A DNA stretch of 64,000 bases, from positions 248,001-312,000 of the forward strand of contig NZ_JACJON010000068.1 of assembly GCF_014695585.1 (NCBI RefSeq). The letters are read 5' to 3'. Positions 8,497 to 14,230 of the stretch are shown here, piece by piece. The stretch's first letter is position 1, and every line of letters begins with the position of its first letter. The DNA comes from Microcoleus sp. FACHB-831. GTDB taxonomy: Bacteria; Cyanobacteriota; Cyanobacteriia; Cyanobacteriales; FACHB-T130. Below the pieces are notes generated by a model that made no database searches, had not been told where the DNA came from, and worked only from the letters and a program-made list of their open reading frames with translations. Both the position numbers and the translations under genes were made by a program.

Positions 8497-9366
8497 TTAC
8501 CAACGCGAATAACCAGAAGGACATTCTACAGTTGTATCATTAACAATCTGCGGTCTAGATGGAAGCTTTTTTGAGGGTTGATTGCTTCGACAAGATATAA
8601 CCTCTGTGGTGTTTTCACCAGAAGATGTCTTGACTACATACACTATACTTGTATAGCTTCTCAAATCATCTTGTTTAGACACCCCTACTAATTGAACTAC
8701 ACGTCTAGGGTCAATCACAACGATTTTATATGAATAGTTCGCTGTTTCAGAATTTATACCTACTCCCATTTCGGAGTTTGTGTACACAAAACGAGAGTAT
8801 TCCGTAAAAGCAGCTTGTTGCCCTTTGGCCATTACACCAACATAAGTTCTGGGTTCTGACTCTTTACCCATTCTCCTAGAGTTTTCCAGAAGCCCAAACA
8901 CGCTGGTATTAGGAGGTAGCCTTGCTTCATCAGATATCTTGTCGAACAATTTTACCTCGTTGCGCGGGAATTCTATGCGTAACTGACCCTTATCCGTGAA
9001 TTGAAAATTTAACCTCTCAGTTAAACCATTATCTGATAGATCTAGATATCGTGGTTGACCAGTTGGGTGAATCTTATAGCTGGTTCCTCCTGCTGTATTT
9101 GAGGAATTCAACACAAATAATTTACCCTCTGGCGTAAAAATTAGCGTCATGTAATCGCTTGCTCCTGTGGAACGCCATTGACCTAATATTTGTTTAGCAA
9201 TTGTTGAATAGTAGGCATAATTTTGTGCGCTTAGTGATTGAGAATCTGATTCTTCTTCTGTTAGGAGCGATCGCTTACTATTCTCCAATCTTTTTGCATC
9301 AGCCTGACAACTGCACACCATCGCTCCTATTACCAGTAAAACACCTGTAAACTTGAATTTTCTCAT
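8497..9366 (-). CDS. Putative lipoprotein with a type IV pilin-like G/H C-terminal domain
   Basis: A 289-residue exported protein. The N-terminus MRKFKFTGVLLVIGAMVCSC has a hydrophobic core and a Cys at a plausible, atypical lipobox. Residues about 45-150 look like a small beta domain of unknown function. The C-terminal half (AAFTEYSRFV, NSETANYSYKI, DDLRSYTSIVYVV, ending VECPSGYSRW) resembles the domain of cyanobacterial type IV pilin-like G/H proteins, but there is no prepilin cleavage motif. A good ribosome binding site (AGGAGACAAGGGG) precedes the ATG. It lies 223 bp downstream of the MNIO operon on the same strand, so co-regulation is possible but unproven. Confidence 0.7.
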   Translation of the reverse strand: MRKFKFTGVLLVIGAMVCSCQADAKRLENSKRSLLTEEESDSQSLSAQNYAYYSTIAKQILGQWRSTGASDYMTLIFTPEGKLFVLNSSNTAGGTSYKIHPTGQPRYLDLSDNGLTERLNFQFTDKGQLRIEFPRNEVKLFDKISDEARLPPNTSVFGLLENSRRMGKESEPRTYVGVMAKGQQAAFTEYSRFVYTNSEMGVGINSETANYSYKIVVIDPRRVVQLVGVSKQDDLRSYTSIVYVVKTSSGENTTEVISCRSNQPSKKLPSRPQIVNDTTVECPSGYSRW

Positions 9367-9589: not shown

Positions 9590-10192
9590 TTACCCTAACT
9601 TAGGCAACGCGATCGCAATATGTCGCAAATGCGATCGCGGCGATAGGCGAAACCACAAAATAAGACTGGGTTGCAATAACAACAACGGCTCTTTATCCTG
9701 TTGTGCTAAACTTCGCGCTAGCTGCTTGATAGCATAGCGAAACTTGTATGCAGTCAATCTACGAGTTGGTTCTGCGGCTTCCAGCCATGCTTTTTCATAA
9801 CGCACCAACTCCACAACCGGGGATGGCTCTATGCGATCGCTATCAGTAACTTTTTCGATAAAATTTGCGAAAGCGATCGCATCTTCCAAATGTTTCTTAA
9901 TCCCCTTGGGAATATAAGTTTCGGCATATTGCCAAAACAACTTAGAAAAATCCTTACCCAACACGCGATGCGTTAACGGTAAAAGTTCTCGCACTTCACC
10001 CAACCGCTTGCGCTTCAGCGAACTGGCAAACAAATTAACTTGTTGTGCAGATAATTGAGCAAGTTGCTTGGCTTCATCAAAACTCAGCCCAAACTCTTCA
10101 CAAACTACTTGCGGATTAGCAAAAAACCGCTCTCTTAAAACAGTATTAGTGTAAAGCTGGGCTAAAACTTGCTGCGTTTTTTCTAAACCCAT
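9590..10192 (-). CDS. Partner protein of the DUF692 enzyme
   Basis: About 200 residues, helical, with no signal peptide. The N-terminal part (VLAQLYTNTVLRERFFANP, then EEFGLSFDEAKQLAQLSAQQ) resembles the small helical recognition domains found beside DUF692 enzymes, comparable in role to MbnC or DUF2063-type partners. I do not recognise a named family. The ATG at 10192 overlaps the end of the upstream DUF692 gene by 10 bp (ATGGGTTTAG). A GTG at 10204 is possible but overlaps the GGGAGG ribosome binding site. Such partners bind the substrate peptide and present it to the iron enzyme, so that role is inferred here. It is the last gene of the operon. Confidence 0.8.
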   Translation of the reverse strand: MGLEKTQQVLAQLYTNTVLRERFFANPQVVCEEFGLSFDEAKQLAQLSAQQVNLFASSLKRKRLGEVRELLPLTHRVLGKDFSKLFWQYAETYIPKGIKKHLEDAIAFANFIEKVTDSDRIEPSPVVELVRYEKAWLEAAEPTRRLTAYKFRYAIKQLARSLAQQDKEPLLLLQPSLILWFRLSPRSHLRHIAIALPKLG

Positions 10193-11016
10193 CTTCCATG
10201 ACACCTCCCAATCTTGCGTGCGCGTTCCACTTCCGCTGAAATTTCTGCAAAAGGTGGCAAGTTTTCATCACGTTCTAGCACTATGCCTTTAACTGGAACG
10301 CTGGCTAATACTTCATCCATAAGTTTCCACACCTCTACAGGCGTCGAGTGTGAATGACTGTCGATAAGTACGCCATCATGCCAATGTCCGCCGACAAAAT
10401 GCAACTGGACGACGCGCTCTAATGGCAATTGCGATAAGAAAGTATGAACGTCATAGTTGTGGTTAACTCCATTAATATGGAGATTCGTGACATCCAGCAG
10501 CAACCCGCAATCAGAACGCTCCACCACTTCCGCGAGAAACTGGGCTTCTGTCATCTCGCCACCTGGAACAGTCAGCATATAGGTGATGTTCTCCAGAATC
10601 AGCGGCACGTCTATCAAGCGACGCGCTTGCTCAATATTGCGGCAAACCACTTCCACCGCCTCGCGTGTATAAGGTAGCGGTGAAAGATGCCCGATATCTA
10701 CACCACCCGCTCTTGTAAAACAGATATGTTCGCTCCACCAAGGTGGATTCAGTTGCTTAATTAGTGCTGCCAGTTTGCCTAAATAATCCGCGTCCAAACC
10801 TTCTGCACTGCCTAGCGAAAGATTAATCGCATGCGGGATAAGTGGGAAGTGGGCAGCTAGCAGTTCTAACTCTTGCTCCTTTTGGGGTGGTGCATCTAGG
10901 TAATGTTCGGCGACGATTTCTAGAAAATCAACCCCCCCCCGATTCAGAAACAAGTCGCTGCGGAACGGTTCCCTAAAACCTAGACCTACACCTAATGTCG
11001 GTAGATGAGACAGCAT
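10183..11016 (-). CDS. DUF692 / MNIO-family multinuclear iron oxidative enzyme
   Basis: A 277-residue TIM-barrel protein of the DUF692 family, relatives of MbnB, TglH and BufB, which use two or three iron atoms to modify cysteines of ribosomal peptides. Family motifs in order: GVGLGFREPF, EIVAEHYLD, HAINLSLGSAEG, WWSEHICFT, LILENITYML, LLLDVTNLHINGVNHNYD, QLHFVGGHWHDG, DSHSHSTP and GIVLERDENLPPF, which supply the His/Asp/Glu ligands. The ATG at 11016 is 10 nt after the stop of the Cys-rich gene, with GGAGG upstream. A longer frame to 11319 only reads the Cys-tail DNA out of frame. Codons 26-29 contain nine consecutive G (10932-10940), a possible slippage site. The substrates are probably the two Cys-tailed proteins upstream. 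Confidence 0.92.
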   Translation of the reverse strand: MLSHLPTLGVGLGFREPFRSDLFLNRGGVDFLEIVAEHYLDAPPQKEQELELLAAHFPLIPHAINLSLGSAEGLDADYLGKLAALIKQLNPPWWSEHICFTRAGGVDIGHLSPLPYTREAVEVVCRNIEQARRLIDVPLILENITYMLTVPGGEMTEAQFLAEVVERSDCGLLLDVTNLHINGVNHNYDVHTFLSQLPLERVVQLHFVGGHWHDGVLIDSHSHSTPVEVWKLMDEVLASVPVKGIVLERDENLPPFAEISAEVERARKIGRCHGRWV

Positions 11017-11026
11017 ATCTAAACTA

Positions 11027-12064
11027 TCATCCTCCACAGCCGCCACAGCCACCACCGCAACTACTGCCGCAACTACTGCCGCTGCACGAGCTATCGGACG
11101 AGCTACTACACGAGCTACCGCAGGAACTACTACTACTGCACGAGCTATCGAACGAGCTACTACACGAGCTACCGCAGGAACTACTACTGCACGAGCTATC
11201 GGACGAGCTTCTTTGCCTGCTATTAGATCCTCGACGCGATAATCGATTAGGCGAAGGTGGTGGAAGAAAGGCTTTTCGGTAGTAGTCGTAGGAAGTTCCA
11301 GCAAGTGCTTCCACGCCAAACAGCGCTACCAGCAATTTGTAGTCAAGTGCATCAGGAATGCTCGATTTTGCCTTCTCTTGGAGCTGCGCGAATGTTCCTT
11401 GAAGTCGCTTGAGATAATTTTGTCCGCGATCGCTCAAGCGTGGCGGCTGCTTAATCAACCAAAGCAGCATAACGAGCGAGACAACGCCCATCACGATCAA
11501 CAAACCCACGTTATAGCGTCCTTTAGCCAAGGCTACCAAGAGCTTGTAGCTACCGAGGGTGAAAACGATCGCTGCGCCTACTAAGCCGACTTTCACGTTC
11601 CATGCTTTCCACTCATCCGCATACAGCAATTGCTCATTTTTCAACGACTGTTCGTAAACTGCATATTTTTCCCGGACGATGACGGGTAAGAACGATGAGA
11701 ATTTCATCTCATCTGCCTGATGCGAGGAATAAAAACACTTAAAGAACTCGCTTTCTATTAGCTTCAAGCCACCCAGATCTGGGTAATTTGGCGCTTGCTG
11801 GATGGATTTTTCCTTGACTTGCAAATAACCGCGCTGAATTAAGTTAAAGACTGCTAGCTTAGTTAATTCGGTTTCGCCGCCTCGCAAGTAAGCAATTTCG
11901 TAGGGGTCGGGGTTAGTAGGAATTAACGGCAAAGGCTGTTTTTTTGTTGGGTCTTGTATGAATCGCCAGCATACTACAAGCGTCGATACAATAATAACGC
12001 TGTAAAACAGCAGAAACTGCGGCCCATACATATCTGCAATTGGATTATGCAGCAACATATCCAT
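11027..12064 (-). CDS. TIGR04222-type membrane protein with Ser/Cys-rich tail (putative MNIO substrate B)
   Basis: 345 residues. The N-terminal membrane segment follows NPIADMYGP (FLLFYSVIIVSTLVVCW). Then comes the family block DPYEIAYLRGGETELTKLAV..LIQRGYLQV, a central hydrophobic pair (about 155-205) and PPRLSDRGQNYLKRLQ. From about residue 265 it becomes low complexity, Arg/Ser and then a tail with 11 cysteines as DSSC, SSSC and GSSC units ending GGGCGGCGG. TIGR04222 (near uncomplexed cysteine) was defined on such proteins and, as I recall, noted beside DUF692. AGGAGG (12071-12076) precedes the ATG. The DNA of the tail is a degenerate tandem repeat. The tail is probably a modification substrate tethered to the membrane. 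Confidence 0.88.
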   Translation of the reverse strand: MDMLLHNPIADMYGPQFLLFYSVIIVSTLVVCWRFIQDPTKKQPLPLIPTNPDPYEIAYLRGGETELTKLAVFNLIQRGYLQVKEKSIQQAPNYPDLGGLKLIESEFFKCFYSSHQADEMKFSSFLPVIVREKYAVYEQSLKNEQLLYADEWKAWNVKVGLVGAAIVFTLGSYKLLVALAKGRYNVGLLIVMGVVSLVMLLWLIKQPPRLSDRGQNYLKRLQGTFAQLQEKAKSSIPDALDYKLLVALFGVEALAGTSYDYYRKAFLPPPSPNRLSRRGSNSRQRSSSDSSCSSSSCGSSCSSSFDSSCSSSSSCGSSCSSSSDSSCSGSSCGSSCGGGCGGCGG

Positions 12065-12270
12065 CAGGAAACCTCCTTTTTTGGGTTGCCAGTCAGCGAA
12101 TCGATTTAGCGTTTAATGGTTTAGTGTTTGCAATCTTGTCCTAATCGCTCCTGTAATTTGCATACTTCATTGATAACACACTGTTACTACAAGTAAGTTC
12201 AGGCTTACGGGGGAACCAGGGTTTTAACCAAGATAGTAGAAGGGAAAAGTTGACAGCGATCGCATCAAAC

Positions 12271-13263
12271 TTAACCGCCACACCCTCCACCACACCCGCC
12301 ACAGCCACCACCACAACCACCGCCGCCGCCATCGCCACCGCCATCACCGCCGCCACAACTTCCACCACAGCCAGTACCGCTGCTAGTAGTTGTGGACCTA
12401 TGAAACATTTGCTCAAAGTCACCATAGGGTGTACCCGCTAGCATCCCTACGCCAAAGACGGCTACAGGTAGCACCAAGCTCAAATCTGTACTATTAGGAT
12501 TATTAGTAGTGACGCTAGAAACTTGCCCCTTCAGTCCTGCAAATGTTTGCTGAAGCCGCTCTAGATAAGCTCGTCCTCGATGGCTCAAGCGCGGTGGGTT
12601 GCTGATAATTCCCAGCAAAACCAGCGATATGAAGCCCATGATTATCAGAAATACGACATTGAAGCGCCCGTTTACCAGCGCTATTAAAAGTTTATAGCCG
12701 CCTAAACCAAGGATGATTAGTATCCCTATCCAATGAACGCGCTCTGCTATGCGTTTTAGTTCATCTGGCAAAAGCAGTTTCTCGTTGTGCAGTCGCTGTT
12801 CATAGATTGTGCAATGTTGTTTCACAGATAGCGGTAGCGATAATTGGAAAATGTCTCTAGCTTTGCGCGGAGAAGAGAACCAGCTAAACACATCGCGCTC
12901 GATTGCAGTCAGATTCGACGGGTGCGGCTGGTCGGGCGCTTTCTCTATATAATCGCCCGCAATTTGCAAATACCCGCGCTGAATTAAATCAAAAATAGCC
13001 AGCCGCGTCACTTCATTCTCTCCACCCCGCAAATAAGCAATTTCGTAGGGATCGGGTTTAGTAGGAATCAATGGCAGAGCTAAGTTTGTTGGTGCATCGA
13101 GATAACGCACATTACACCAGCATATTACCAGCGTTATCCCAATAACAAAAGCATAAAACAGCAGAAAGTCCGGCCCATACATATTGGCAATTGGATTTGC
13201 TATGGGGTTGCTTATTACCACGACCGCCAAGAAAGCCAAGATGCATATTAGCAATTTATCCAT
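12271..13263 (-). CDS. TIGR04222-type membrane protein with Gly/Cys tail (putative MNIO substrate A)
   Basis: A 330-residue paralogue of the next gene. Shared blocks are NPIANMYGPDFLLFYAF, DPYEIAYLRGGENEVTRLAI, LIQRGYLQ, a central hydrophobic pair and PPRLSHRGRAYLERLQ. It has an additional N-terminal hydrophobic stretch (LLICILAFLAVVVI). The tail differs: after HRSTTTSSGTGC it is almost pure Gly, Asp and Cys with six cysteines (GCGGSC, GGGCGGGCGGCGGGCGG). AAAGGGGG precedes the ATG. It is the first gene of the operon, 206 nt ahead of substrate B, so a second promoter or processing site could lie between them. The function is inferred from the family and the adjacent DUF692 enzyme. Confidence 0.88.
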   Translation of the reverse strand: MDKLLICILAFLAVVVISNPIANPIANMYGPDFLLFYAFVIGITLVICWCNVRYLDAPTNLALPLIPTKPDPYEIAYLRGGENEVTRLAIFDLIQRGYLQIAGDYIEKAPDQPHPSNLTAIERDVFSWFSSPRKARDIFQLSLPLSVKQHCTIYEQRLHNEKLLLPDELKRIAERVHWIGILIILGLGGYKLLIALVNGRFNVVFLIIMGFISLVLLGIISNPPRLSHRGRAYLERLQQTFAGLKGQVSSVTTNNPNSTDLSLVLPVAVFGVGMLAGTPYGDFEQMFHRSTTTSSGTGCGGSCGGGDGGGDGGGGGCGGGCGGCGGGCGG

Positions 13264-13435: not shown

Positions 13436-14230
13436 CTATTCCCTAACAACAGCTAATTTTTCCAATTTATTGCCGCAGATTTTGCAAAACCTAGCATCTG
13501 CATCGTGGGATGACAACCCACAAGTAGAACAAAGCGTTTCTACGCGATCGCTGTTCTTCACCAATCTCTTAATTAAATTACCCAACTGCCAGGGTATAAG
13601 AGCAATTCCCGTTAAAATCATTAATACTGTCAGCAGCCTCCCCAATTCTGAAGTCGGCGTTACGTCGCCAAATCCTACTGTAGTCATCGTTACTACAGAG
13701 AAATAAAAGGCGTCTAAAAAAGTACGAAATCCTTTAGGGTTTACCGGATGCTCGACTTGATAAATTAAGCCTGAATAAACAAAGATAATTGCAAATAAAG
13801 TAAATAATATTCTGGCTGAAATTACGCTATCTTCCAAAATGATGCGACCCAGTAAAGTTCTTCCCTCGATAAAACGGATTAGCCGCAAAATCCGAAACCA
13901 GCGGAATATCCGAATAAAACTTATATCTACAATTCCTAAAAAAACTGGTACTATTGCCAGCAAATCGATTACTGAATATAAACTAAATAAATATTTTACT
14001 TTATCAGGCGCACACCAAAGACGCAATAAATACTCGTAAGCAAAAAGTAGCACCAGGGCAAAATCTATAATATCGAGATTAATACGAACGTAATCTGGTA
14101 GAGGGTATGTTTCTGCAACAAATATTGCTGAAGATACAAGCACCAGGGCAGTAATTACTAAATTAATAGTTCTGCCTACTGGCGTTTCCATGTCTTCTAG
14201 ATAAAAAGCAATCTTTTGTCGCAGCAACAT
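13436..14230 (-). CDS. Voltage-gated-type potassium channel with C-terminal zinc ribbon
   Basis: 264 residues with six hydrophobic segments. S4 is positively charged (IRIFRWFRILRLIRF). The pore loop carries the filter TMTTVGFGDVTP (TVGFGD, K+-selective type). After S6 a short cytoplasmic tail holds two CxxC pairs (CSTCGLSSHDADARFCKICG), a zinc ribbon. Voltage sensing and K+ transport across the plasma membrane are expected. The stop lies 172 bp before the first Cys-tail gene on the same strand, so it may be read into that operon. The zinc ribbon on a six-segment channel is unusual, although such ribbons occur on several cyanobacterial channels. Confidence 0.9.
   Translation of the reverse strand: MLLRQKIAFYLEDMETPVGRTINLVITALVLVSSAIFVAETYPLPDYVRINLDIIDFALVLLFAYEYLLRLWCAPDKVKYLFSLYSVIDLLAIVPVFLGIVDISFIRIFRWFRILRLIRFIEGRTLLGRIILEDSVISARILFTLFAIIFVYSGLIYQVEHPVNPKGFRTFLDAFYFSVVTMTTVGFGDVTPTSELGRLLTVLMILTGIALIPWQLGNLIKRLVKNSDRVETLCSTCGLSSHDADARFCKICGNKLEKLAVVRE

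Follow-up and report, generated by a model that had tools for sequence, protein, structure and literature searches.

A four-gene operon on the minus strand of a 64,000-nucleotide stretch of the Microcoleus sp. FACHB-831 genome (contig NZ_JACJON010000068.1, positions 248,001 to 312,000; hereafter the window, with positions counted from its first letter) appears to be a membrane-anchored counterpart of a ribosomally synthesised and post-translationally modified peptide (RiPP) pathway. In this reading, to which we give a probability of roughly 0.68, an MNIO (DUF692) enzyme and its partner protein would oxidise cysteines in the tails of two TIGR04222 membrane proteins, A and B. The two substrates are predicted to expose a short N-terminal part or loop on the outer side of the membrane and to have the soluble domain inside, followed by a transmembrane (TM) hairpin and a cysteine tail that again lies inside. 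The cytoplasmic MNIO and its partner would bind the tail and oxidise several of its cysteines, and by analogy with the nearest characterised relatives the products would most likely be of the 5-thiooxazole type. The partner would hold the enzyme and present the tail, and its N-terminal leader-like domain may replace the leader that is absent from the substrates. Most speculatively, the product could be a metal-binding or redox-active patch on the inner face of the membrane. The full combination, with modification in place, a cytoplasmic tail, an NHLP leader-like domain acting in trans, a permanent inner-face patch of thiooxazole type and no secreted metallophore, is tentative, and we would expect it to fail in some part rather more readily than to hold in all of them.

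The MNIO products characterised in the cited papers, as far as the sections consulted describe them, are peptides and largely copper-binding. If MNIOs do modify full-size membrane proteins, their chemistry would count as a regular way of modifying proteins in cyanobacteria, acidobacteria and planctomycetes. With its three gene types the locus is compact, and it is found in named Nostoc strains. The features of the operon are as follows.

12271–13263, minus strand: TIGR04222 membrane protein A, 330 residues (TIGR04222 E 5.6e-33, over the curated cut-off)
12271–12399 including the stop codon, minus strand: Gly/Ser/Cys tail of A, residues 289–330, 6 Cys, ending in CGGCGGGCGG (tail start set by eye)
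11027–12064, minus strand: TIGR04222 membrane protein B, 345 residues (TIGR04222 E 1.8e-27, over the curated cut-off)
11027–11254 including the stop codon, minus strand: Ser/Gly/Cys tail of B, residues 271–345, 11 Cys, ending in CGGGCGGCGG (tail start set by eye)
10183–11016, minus strand: MNIO (DUF692) enzyme, 277 residues (PF05114 E 2e-89)
9590–10192, minus strand: MNIO partner, 200 residues, PME-type 2-like (model with a predicted local distance difference test score, pLDDT, of 94.1 and a TglI-like fold)
10013–10192, minus strand: Os1348/NHLP-like helical N-terminal domain of the partner, residues about 1–60 (from NF038399 and 6lk7_C)
9590–9760, minus strand: short beta-alpha-beta-beta C-terminal part of the partner, residues about 145–200 (from the secondary structure of the model)

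Gene order and association across genomes

The genes are transcribed in the order A, B, MNIO, partner. The likely start of the MNIO is the ATG at 11016 and the stop codon of B ends at 11027, leaving a 10-nt gap. Starting from its ATG at 10192, the partner gene overlaps the end of the MNIO gene by 10 bp (22 with the alternative GTG at 10204). This layout of four minus-strand genes, the TIGR04222-like nature of the first two, their cysteine tails and the assignment of the third gene to DUF692/MNIO had all been put forward in the initial annotation, and the coordinates and family scores bear them out. In the whole genome, PF05114 is matched once and TIGR04222 twice, in each case inside the operon. 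A longer, TTG-started MNIO frame reaching to 11319 was discarded as mere read-through of the repetitive tail of B. Open frames cross this tail on both strands between 10995 and 11319, apparently as by-products of the repeat, and they would mislead automatic annotation by giving the MNIO a false N-terminus.

When named genomes were scanned with the MNIO alignment, 74 loci with a relative of the window MNIO emerged, many of them records of metagenome bins, for which some phylum labels may be wrong. A cysteine-tailed TIGR04222 protein, taken as one with at least three Cys in the last 60 residues, is encoded at 67 of the 74 loci and a partner gene at 72; the occurrence of these homologues apart from cysteine-tailed proteins, which the initial annotation had named as the observation that would overturn its proposal, is thus not what was found. 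Among the seven exceptions, the MNIO lies near a contig end at L141 and L152, the genes are broken at L170, L135 has a frame with weak resemblance to TIGR04222 and 5 Cys in its tail, the genomes of L118 and L137 encode a cysteine-tailed TIGR04222 protein elsewhere, with 8 and 7 Cys, respectively, and L172 is the last. By their labels the loci come from Cyanobacteriota, Acidobacteriota, Planctomycetota, Myxococcota/Deltaproteobacteria, Armatimonadota, Bacteroidota and Verrucomicrobiota. In 39 of 40 cyanobacterial loci (L170, with its broken genes, among the 39) the genes follow the order TIGR04222, MNIO, partner, which argues that the arrangement is not due to chance, and the overlap between MNIO and partner is exactly 10 in 29 of the 40. 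We conclude that the association between the MNIO and TIGR04222 genes is real.

Among 386 genomes of the phylum surveyed, TIGR04222 was found in 22 and PF05114 in 28, and the same operon was present in nine (G000, G024, G042, G068, G074, G338, G340, G352 and G382); five of the six genomes of the window's family have the MNIO. In a second draw of 373 genomes, the partner profile gave near full-length matches in nine of the genomes listed, namely all operon genomes but G382, eight in number, together with G038, in which a cysteine-tailed frame with weak resemblance to TIGR04222 comes before the MNIO. Outside the cyanobacterial phylum TIGR04222 was sampled in Planctomycetota only (over the cut-off in 8 of 149 genomes); most TIGR04222 proteins belong to Actinomycetota according to PMC12452194.

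The enzyme, its partner and related systems

A maximum-likelihood tree was built from 96 MNIOs, and a branch with 100/100 support sets 81 of them apart from the rest. A linked, cysteine-tailed TIGR04222 protein accompanies 73 of these 81 and none of the other 15, a comparison in which the 15 belong without exception to the cyanobacterial phylum, the linked MNIOs of other phyla were reached solely via relatives of the window MNIO, and the support within the clade of 81 is mixed, with some long branches. Five of the 15 outside MNIOs (L081, L087, L088, L092 and L093) have small cysteine-bearing frames upstream, with N-termini that look like signal peptides by eye, and the genome G382 encodes MNIOs of both kinds. 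At L087:5143-6888, in a genome from the window's phylum, a single 581-residue frame has both an MNIO and a partner-like match.

The window MNIO scores 299.8 bits against PF05114 (gathering score 25). His62, His97, Glu142, Asp175, Asn178, His206, Asp219, His221, Glu248 and Asp250 are invariant in all 81 MNIOs of the clade, and the enzyme is intact by this measure; we take these residues to include the metal ligands and, in Asp250, the catalytic Asp, and the ligand positions of the window MNIO align with those of the MNIO structures 3bww, 8hci and 7dz9. The best NCBIfam models are BufB (244 bits, cut-off 310) and HvfB (213.6 bits, cut-off 360), both under their cut-offs, so by profile score the enzyme is close to both groups and a member of neither. 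For FonB, the sections consulted of PMC13097082 report that Asp249 is required and that Arg15, Arg16 and Phe250 bear on the residues around the cysteine. When equivalent positions are assigned by way of the ERD motif and the alignment to 3bww, the first Arg position would be Arg in 81 of 81 clade MNIOs, the second would be Glu in 44 and otherwise Gln, Pro or other residues, and the Phe position (here 251) would be Glu in 70 of 81, whereas the Lys-Cys (EGKCG) enzymes described in the same paper have Phe there.

The model of the partner matches TglI best (8hi7_A; Foldseek E 7.9e-6; Z 11.8 over 189 residues), followed by NGO1945 (3dee; Z 9.0, residues 55–198), and from residue 44 on the partner aligns in profile comparison with the DUF2063/HvfC-type partners of other MNIO loci (probability 96%). 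No Pfam family matches the window partner at E ≤ 1, DUF2063 included, and a DUF2063 match (E 0.0086) is found in one of 50 clade partners. These 50 aligned sequences, one of them the window partner, were retained from 91 candidates plus the window after near-copies and odd lengths were excluded; 45 come from loci with a cysteine-tailed TIGR04222 protein and five (L094, L137, L141, L152 and L172) from loci without one.

The first 60 residues of the partner are leader-like. Against NF038399 (Os1348/NHLP) the window partner gives E 2.6e-6 and 27.4 bits, under the cut-off of 40, so that it resembles this clan but does not count as a member. The signal is present in 41 of the 50 clade partners at E ≤ 0.1 and in none of eight partners of the DUF2063/HvfC kind at E ≤ 1; all eight match the HvfC model, and the six scanned with Pfam (L082 and five others) all match DUF2063. 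The crystal structure of Os1348 (6lk7_C) superimposes on the N-terminus with a Z of 8.9 over 63 residues (root-mean-square deviation 2.1), a Z that helical domains can reach by chance, while the sequence signal is independent of the structure match. Taken from profile and model, the partner looks like a leader-like domain followed by DUF2063-like helices and a short end resembling a RiPP recognition element (RRE), and this C-terminal part is possibly a shortened RRE. In the one literature collection searched, we found no paper joining DUF2063 with NHLP and, among the matches listed, none joining MNIO with Os1348.

Several known systems share parts of this arrangement. The BufABC, HvfABC and FonABC systems of bufferins and captophorins also combine an MNIO and a partner with a cysteine-rich substrate, and have the same iron-ligand positions and catalytic Asp, but their precursors are small and carry signal peptides and their partner is of the DUF2063 type (PME-type 1), whereas the window partner has no DUF2063 match. 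TglHI of the 3-thiaglutamate pathway provides, in TglI, the closest fold to the window partner, but is not known to have a membrane substrate; TglH acts on a cysteine added to a carrier peptide. The Os1348/NHLP leader family has both its sequence signal and its fold in common with the first 60 or so residues of the partner, but in NHLP systems this domain stands at the head of the substrate, whereas in the window operon it stands at the head of the partner.

The closest published counterpart is found in Antoine et al. 2025 (PMC12452194), where TIGR04222 proteins, with PME-type 2 partners, are named as putative MNIO substrates and, in the sections consulted, account for 40% of the signal-peptide-less cysteine proteins that precede MNIO genes. 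The paper also states that MNIO genes are absent from a third of TIGR04222 genomes. The novelty that the initial annotation saw in a multi-segment membrane substrate was therefore overstated. The window operon has the hallmarks of these clusters, with a TIGR04222 protein with C-proximal cysteines adjoining the MNIO gene and a partner of NGO1945/TglI-related structure that lacks a DUF2063 match, and is like them in substrate family, enzyme family, partner type and the C-terminal Ser/Gly/Cys character of the membrane protein. Pirellula staleyi is one of the two examples modelled there, and a bin so labelled (L162) falls in the clade of the window MNIO; a word search of the main text returns no Cyanobacteria, Nostoc or Planctomycetes. 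The window differs from those clusters in its two tandem substrates, in a tail argued to be cytoplasmic and in the Os1348/NHLP-like partner domain. Relative to what that paper describes in the sections consulted, the argument for a cytoplasmic tail and the leader-like partner domain are new here; the extra Ser-Cys repeats of MNIO-linked tails, described below, are a further addition.

Membrane topology of A and B

The hydropathy of A defines an extra N-terminal segment at residues 4–22, followed by segments at about 33–51, 179–197 and 203–221. In the AlphaFold2 model of B (pLDDT 82.4, predicted template-modelling score 0.73, tail of low confidence), a TM1 helix (14–36) precedes a soluble domain (about 50–149), a TM hairpin (150–181/187–204) and short helices up to residue 266, and the hydrophobic stretch before the tail forms a broken helix of 11 and 4 residues (239–249 and 251–254). 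Summed over the segments, the balance of Lys and Arg favours an inside location of soluble part and tail in 65 of 66 proteins. Taken by segment, it is positive, zero and negative in 59, 6 and 1 proteins at TM1 and in 65, 1 and 0 at TM3. An extra first segment is found in 11 of the 66, window A included; these proteins and the long forms (10 checked) would keep the same orientation if the soluble N-terminal domain that marks the long forms is cytoplasmic. The long forms, at L059–L064, L067, L075, L076 and L080, are not linked to an MNIO, and in the protein of L080 the soluble domain that otherwise separates TM1 from TM2 is missing.

An apparent kinship with DUF2207 points in the same direction. 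The DUF2207_C family (PF20990) scores 33.8 bits in A and 32.8 bits in B, against a gathering score of 33, and is matched at E ≤ 0.01 by 54 of 68 TIGR04222 relatives (68 aligned sequences, two from the window, retained from 107 candidates plus the window after exclusion of near-copies and odd lengths). For the DUF2207 family, the sections consulted of PMC10457818 describe a Gly/Ser-rich C-terminus that is predicted to be intracellular. Considering the charge balance, the model of B and this kinship, we regard a cytoplasmic cysteine tail as likely.

The best-surviving alternative keeps the same enzyme and substrates but has the modified tail cross the membrane and act in the periplasm, like a tethered bufferin. 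Antoine et al. predict periplasmic TIGR04222 tails from TM topology (PMC12452194, sections consulted), and several of our own observations likewise run counter to a cytoplasmic tail. The charge at the flanks of TM2 is weak (39 positive, 16 zero and 11 negative), and the last hydrophobic segment has at least 18 charge-free residues in 40 of the 66 proteins (8 of 29 cyanobacterial), with a run of 21 before the tail of window A; in many relatives this segment is hydrophobic enough to allow a fourth TM and hence a periplasmic tail. Set against this are the summed positive-inside balance, the short and interrupted helix modelled for B, the DUF2207_C kinship and the charges within the pre-tail segment of many cyanobacterial proteins, 21 of the 29 listed having fewer than 18 charge-free residues there. 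We therefore consider a periplasmic tail unlikely, although it deserves more weight than any other alternative.

A kinship of the TIGR04222 soluble part with GOLPH3/GPP34 was set aside, and is at most a lead. The model of B matches GOLPH3/Vps74 with a Z of 7.7 over 160 residues (3kn1) and 6.3 (2zih), but designed helical bundles scored above the GOLPH3 match. Profile comparison of TIGR04222 with five GPP34 proteins gave probabilities of at most 2.5% (six control comparisons, at most 0.4%). Foldseek found no match of the B model in the PDB at E ≤ 0.001, and a PDB sequence search with the TIGR04222 alignment gave chance-like hits at E 0.04 or worse.

Cysteine tails with and without a linked enzyme

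The 94 TIGR04222 proteins linked to an MNIO have a median of 7 tail Cys, and 91 have at least three; of the remaining three, the gene at L170 is broken, the one at L105 is a truncated second copy and the one at L167 is a second gene located after the partner. The unlinked proteins, all from loci of the cyanobacterial phylum, comprise 15 entries from 14 genes (two entries, both of L065, are pieces of one gene) and have a median of 4, with at least three in 10; this control group is small and interrelated, and the p-values of the comparison are not independent. In nine proteins from Planctomycetota, the five with an MNIO at the locus have 5–7 tail Cys and the four without have 5, 7, 1 and 0.

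The two kinds of tail differ more clearly in composition. At least one C-x5-C motif is present in 63 of 94 linked proteins vs 1 of 15 unlinked entries, and extra Ser-Cys repeats are commoner in linked than in unlinked tails. CGG repeats at the very end are common to linked and unlinked tails (89 of 95 and 8 of 15, respectively) and may therefore have a role independent of the MNIO. By this comparison with a small and related control group, the Ser-Cys section would be the better candidate for the modified part. Near the end of B (residues 337–344), the positions GGGCGGCG are at least 90% conserved in the 68 aligned sequences.

A number of observations weigh against modification of the tails by the MNIO. 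Cysteine tails are found in 10 of the 14 unlinked genes, nine of them in genomes with no reported PF05114 match, while the tenth (L062) comes from a genome, G360, that encodes MNIOs at other places; two of the four unlinked planctomycete proteins, L185 and L187, for which only 1.5 kb on each side was covered, also have such tails. Since the tails persist in unlinked proteins, they must have some use without the enzyme or be modified by other means, and tail cysteines, tried as a sufficient marker of MNIO modification, fail as one. L172, whose MNIO belongs to the clade, has no TIGR04222 match in its whole genome. The residue after the cysteine is small in linked tails (Gly 484, Ser 186 and 11 others among the five commonest) and equally so in unlinked ones (Gly 49 and Ser 4 of 55), so that this feature is consistent with the preference of FonB for a small residue after the cysteine (PMC13097082, sections consulted) yet unspecific. 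Our literature search found no experimental test of the TIGR04222–MNIO type, and no modified product has been seen. Finally, three rough metal-regulator patterns match none of the 38 regions upstream of the first TIGR04222 gene, and the locus gave no pointer to a metal, the scan of gene-neighbour families having covered the window neighbours only. Each of the words TTTCCGTA, TTCCGTAA and TCCGTAAA is present in 13 of these 38 regions of 200 bases vs fewer than one expected, possibly as a regulator site; the window has TTTCTGTAAAAAC upstream of 13263.

Some of these observations can be read in favour of tails that act unmodified, through their thiols or by binding metal, with the MNIO and its partner modifying something else and lying nearby through a shared condition. 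The cysteine tails in the nine genomes without a reported PF05114 match (such as G008, G011, G151 and G312) fit this explanation. It does not account for the fixed gene order, the association under the labels of several phyla or the extra Ser-Cys section of linked tails, nor did a candidate for the other substrate emerge: among frames of 25–110 residues with at least three Cys within 2.5 kb of the MNIO, the widest family occurs in only 6 of 83 loci (the survey of neighbours covered frames of at least 90 residues). We judge unmodified tails improbable. For cysteine modification of the tails, as proposed in the initial annotation, the association across phyla and the fold of the partner stand in its support, whereas a cysteine tail does not by itself imply modification.

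That the ion channel encoded upstream (13436–14230, minus strand) is part of the system and is served by the modified tails is very improbable. In 27 of 40 cyanobacterial loci the channel gene does lie directly upstream with the same orientation, but the channel has a match in 115 of the 195 genomes examined from the order, has no TIGR04222 gene within 1.5 kb at 25 of 30 channel loci examined and is absent from the neighbours common to at least 4 of 42 loci of other groups. As a candidate fifth gene of the operon it was rejected; its position looks like shared gene order. The channel has a zinc-ribbon-like C-terminal end, and further outward a deaminase and a two-component pair are often found. 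Downstream of the operon, the gene at 8497–9366 (minus strand) encodes a protein with a Pilin_GH domain (E 1.2e-25).

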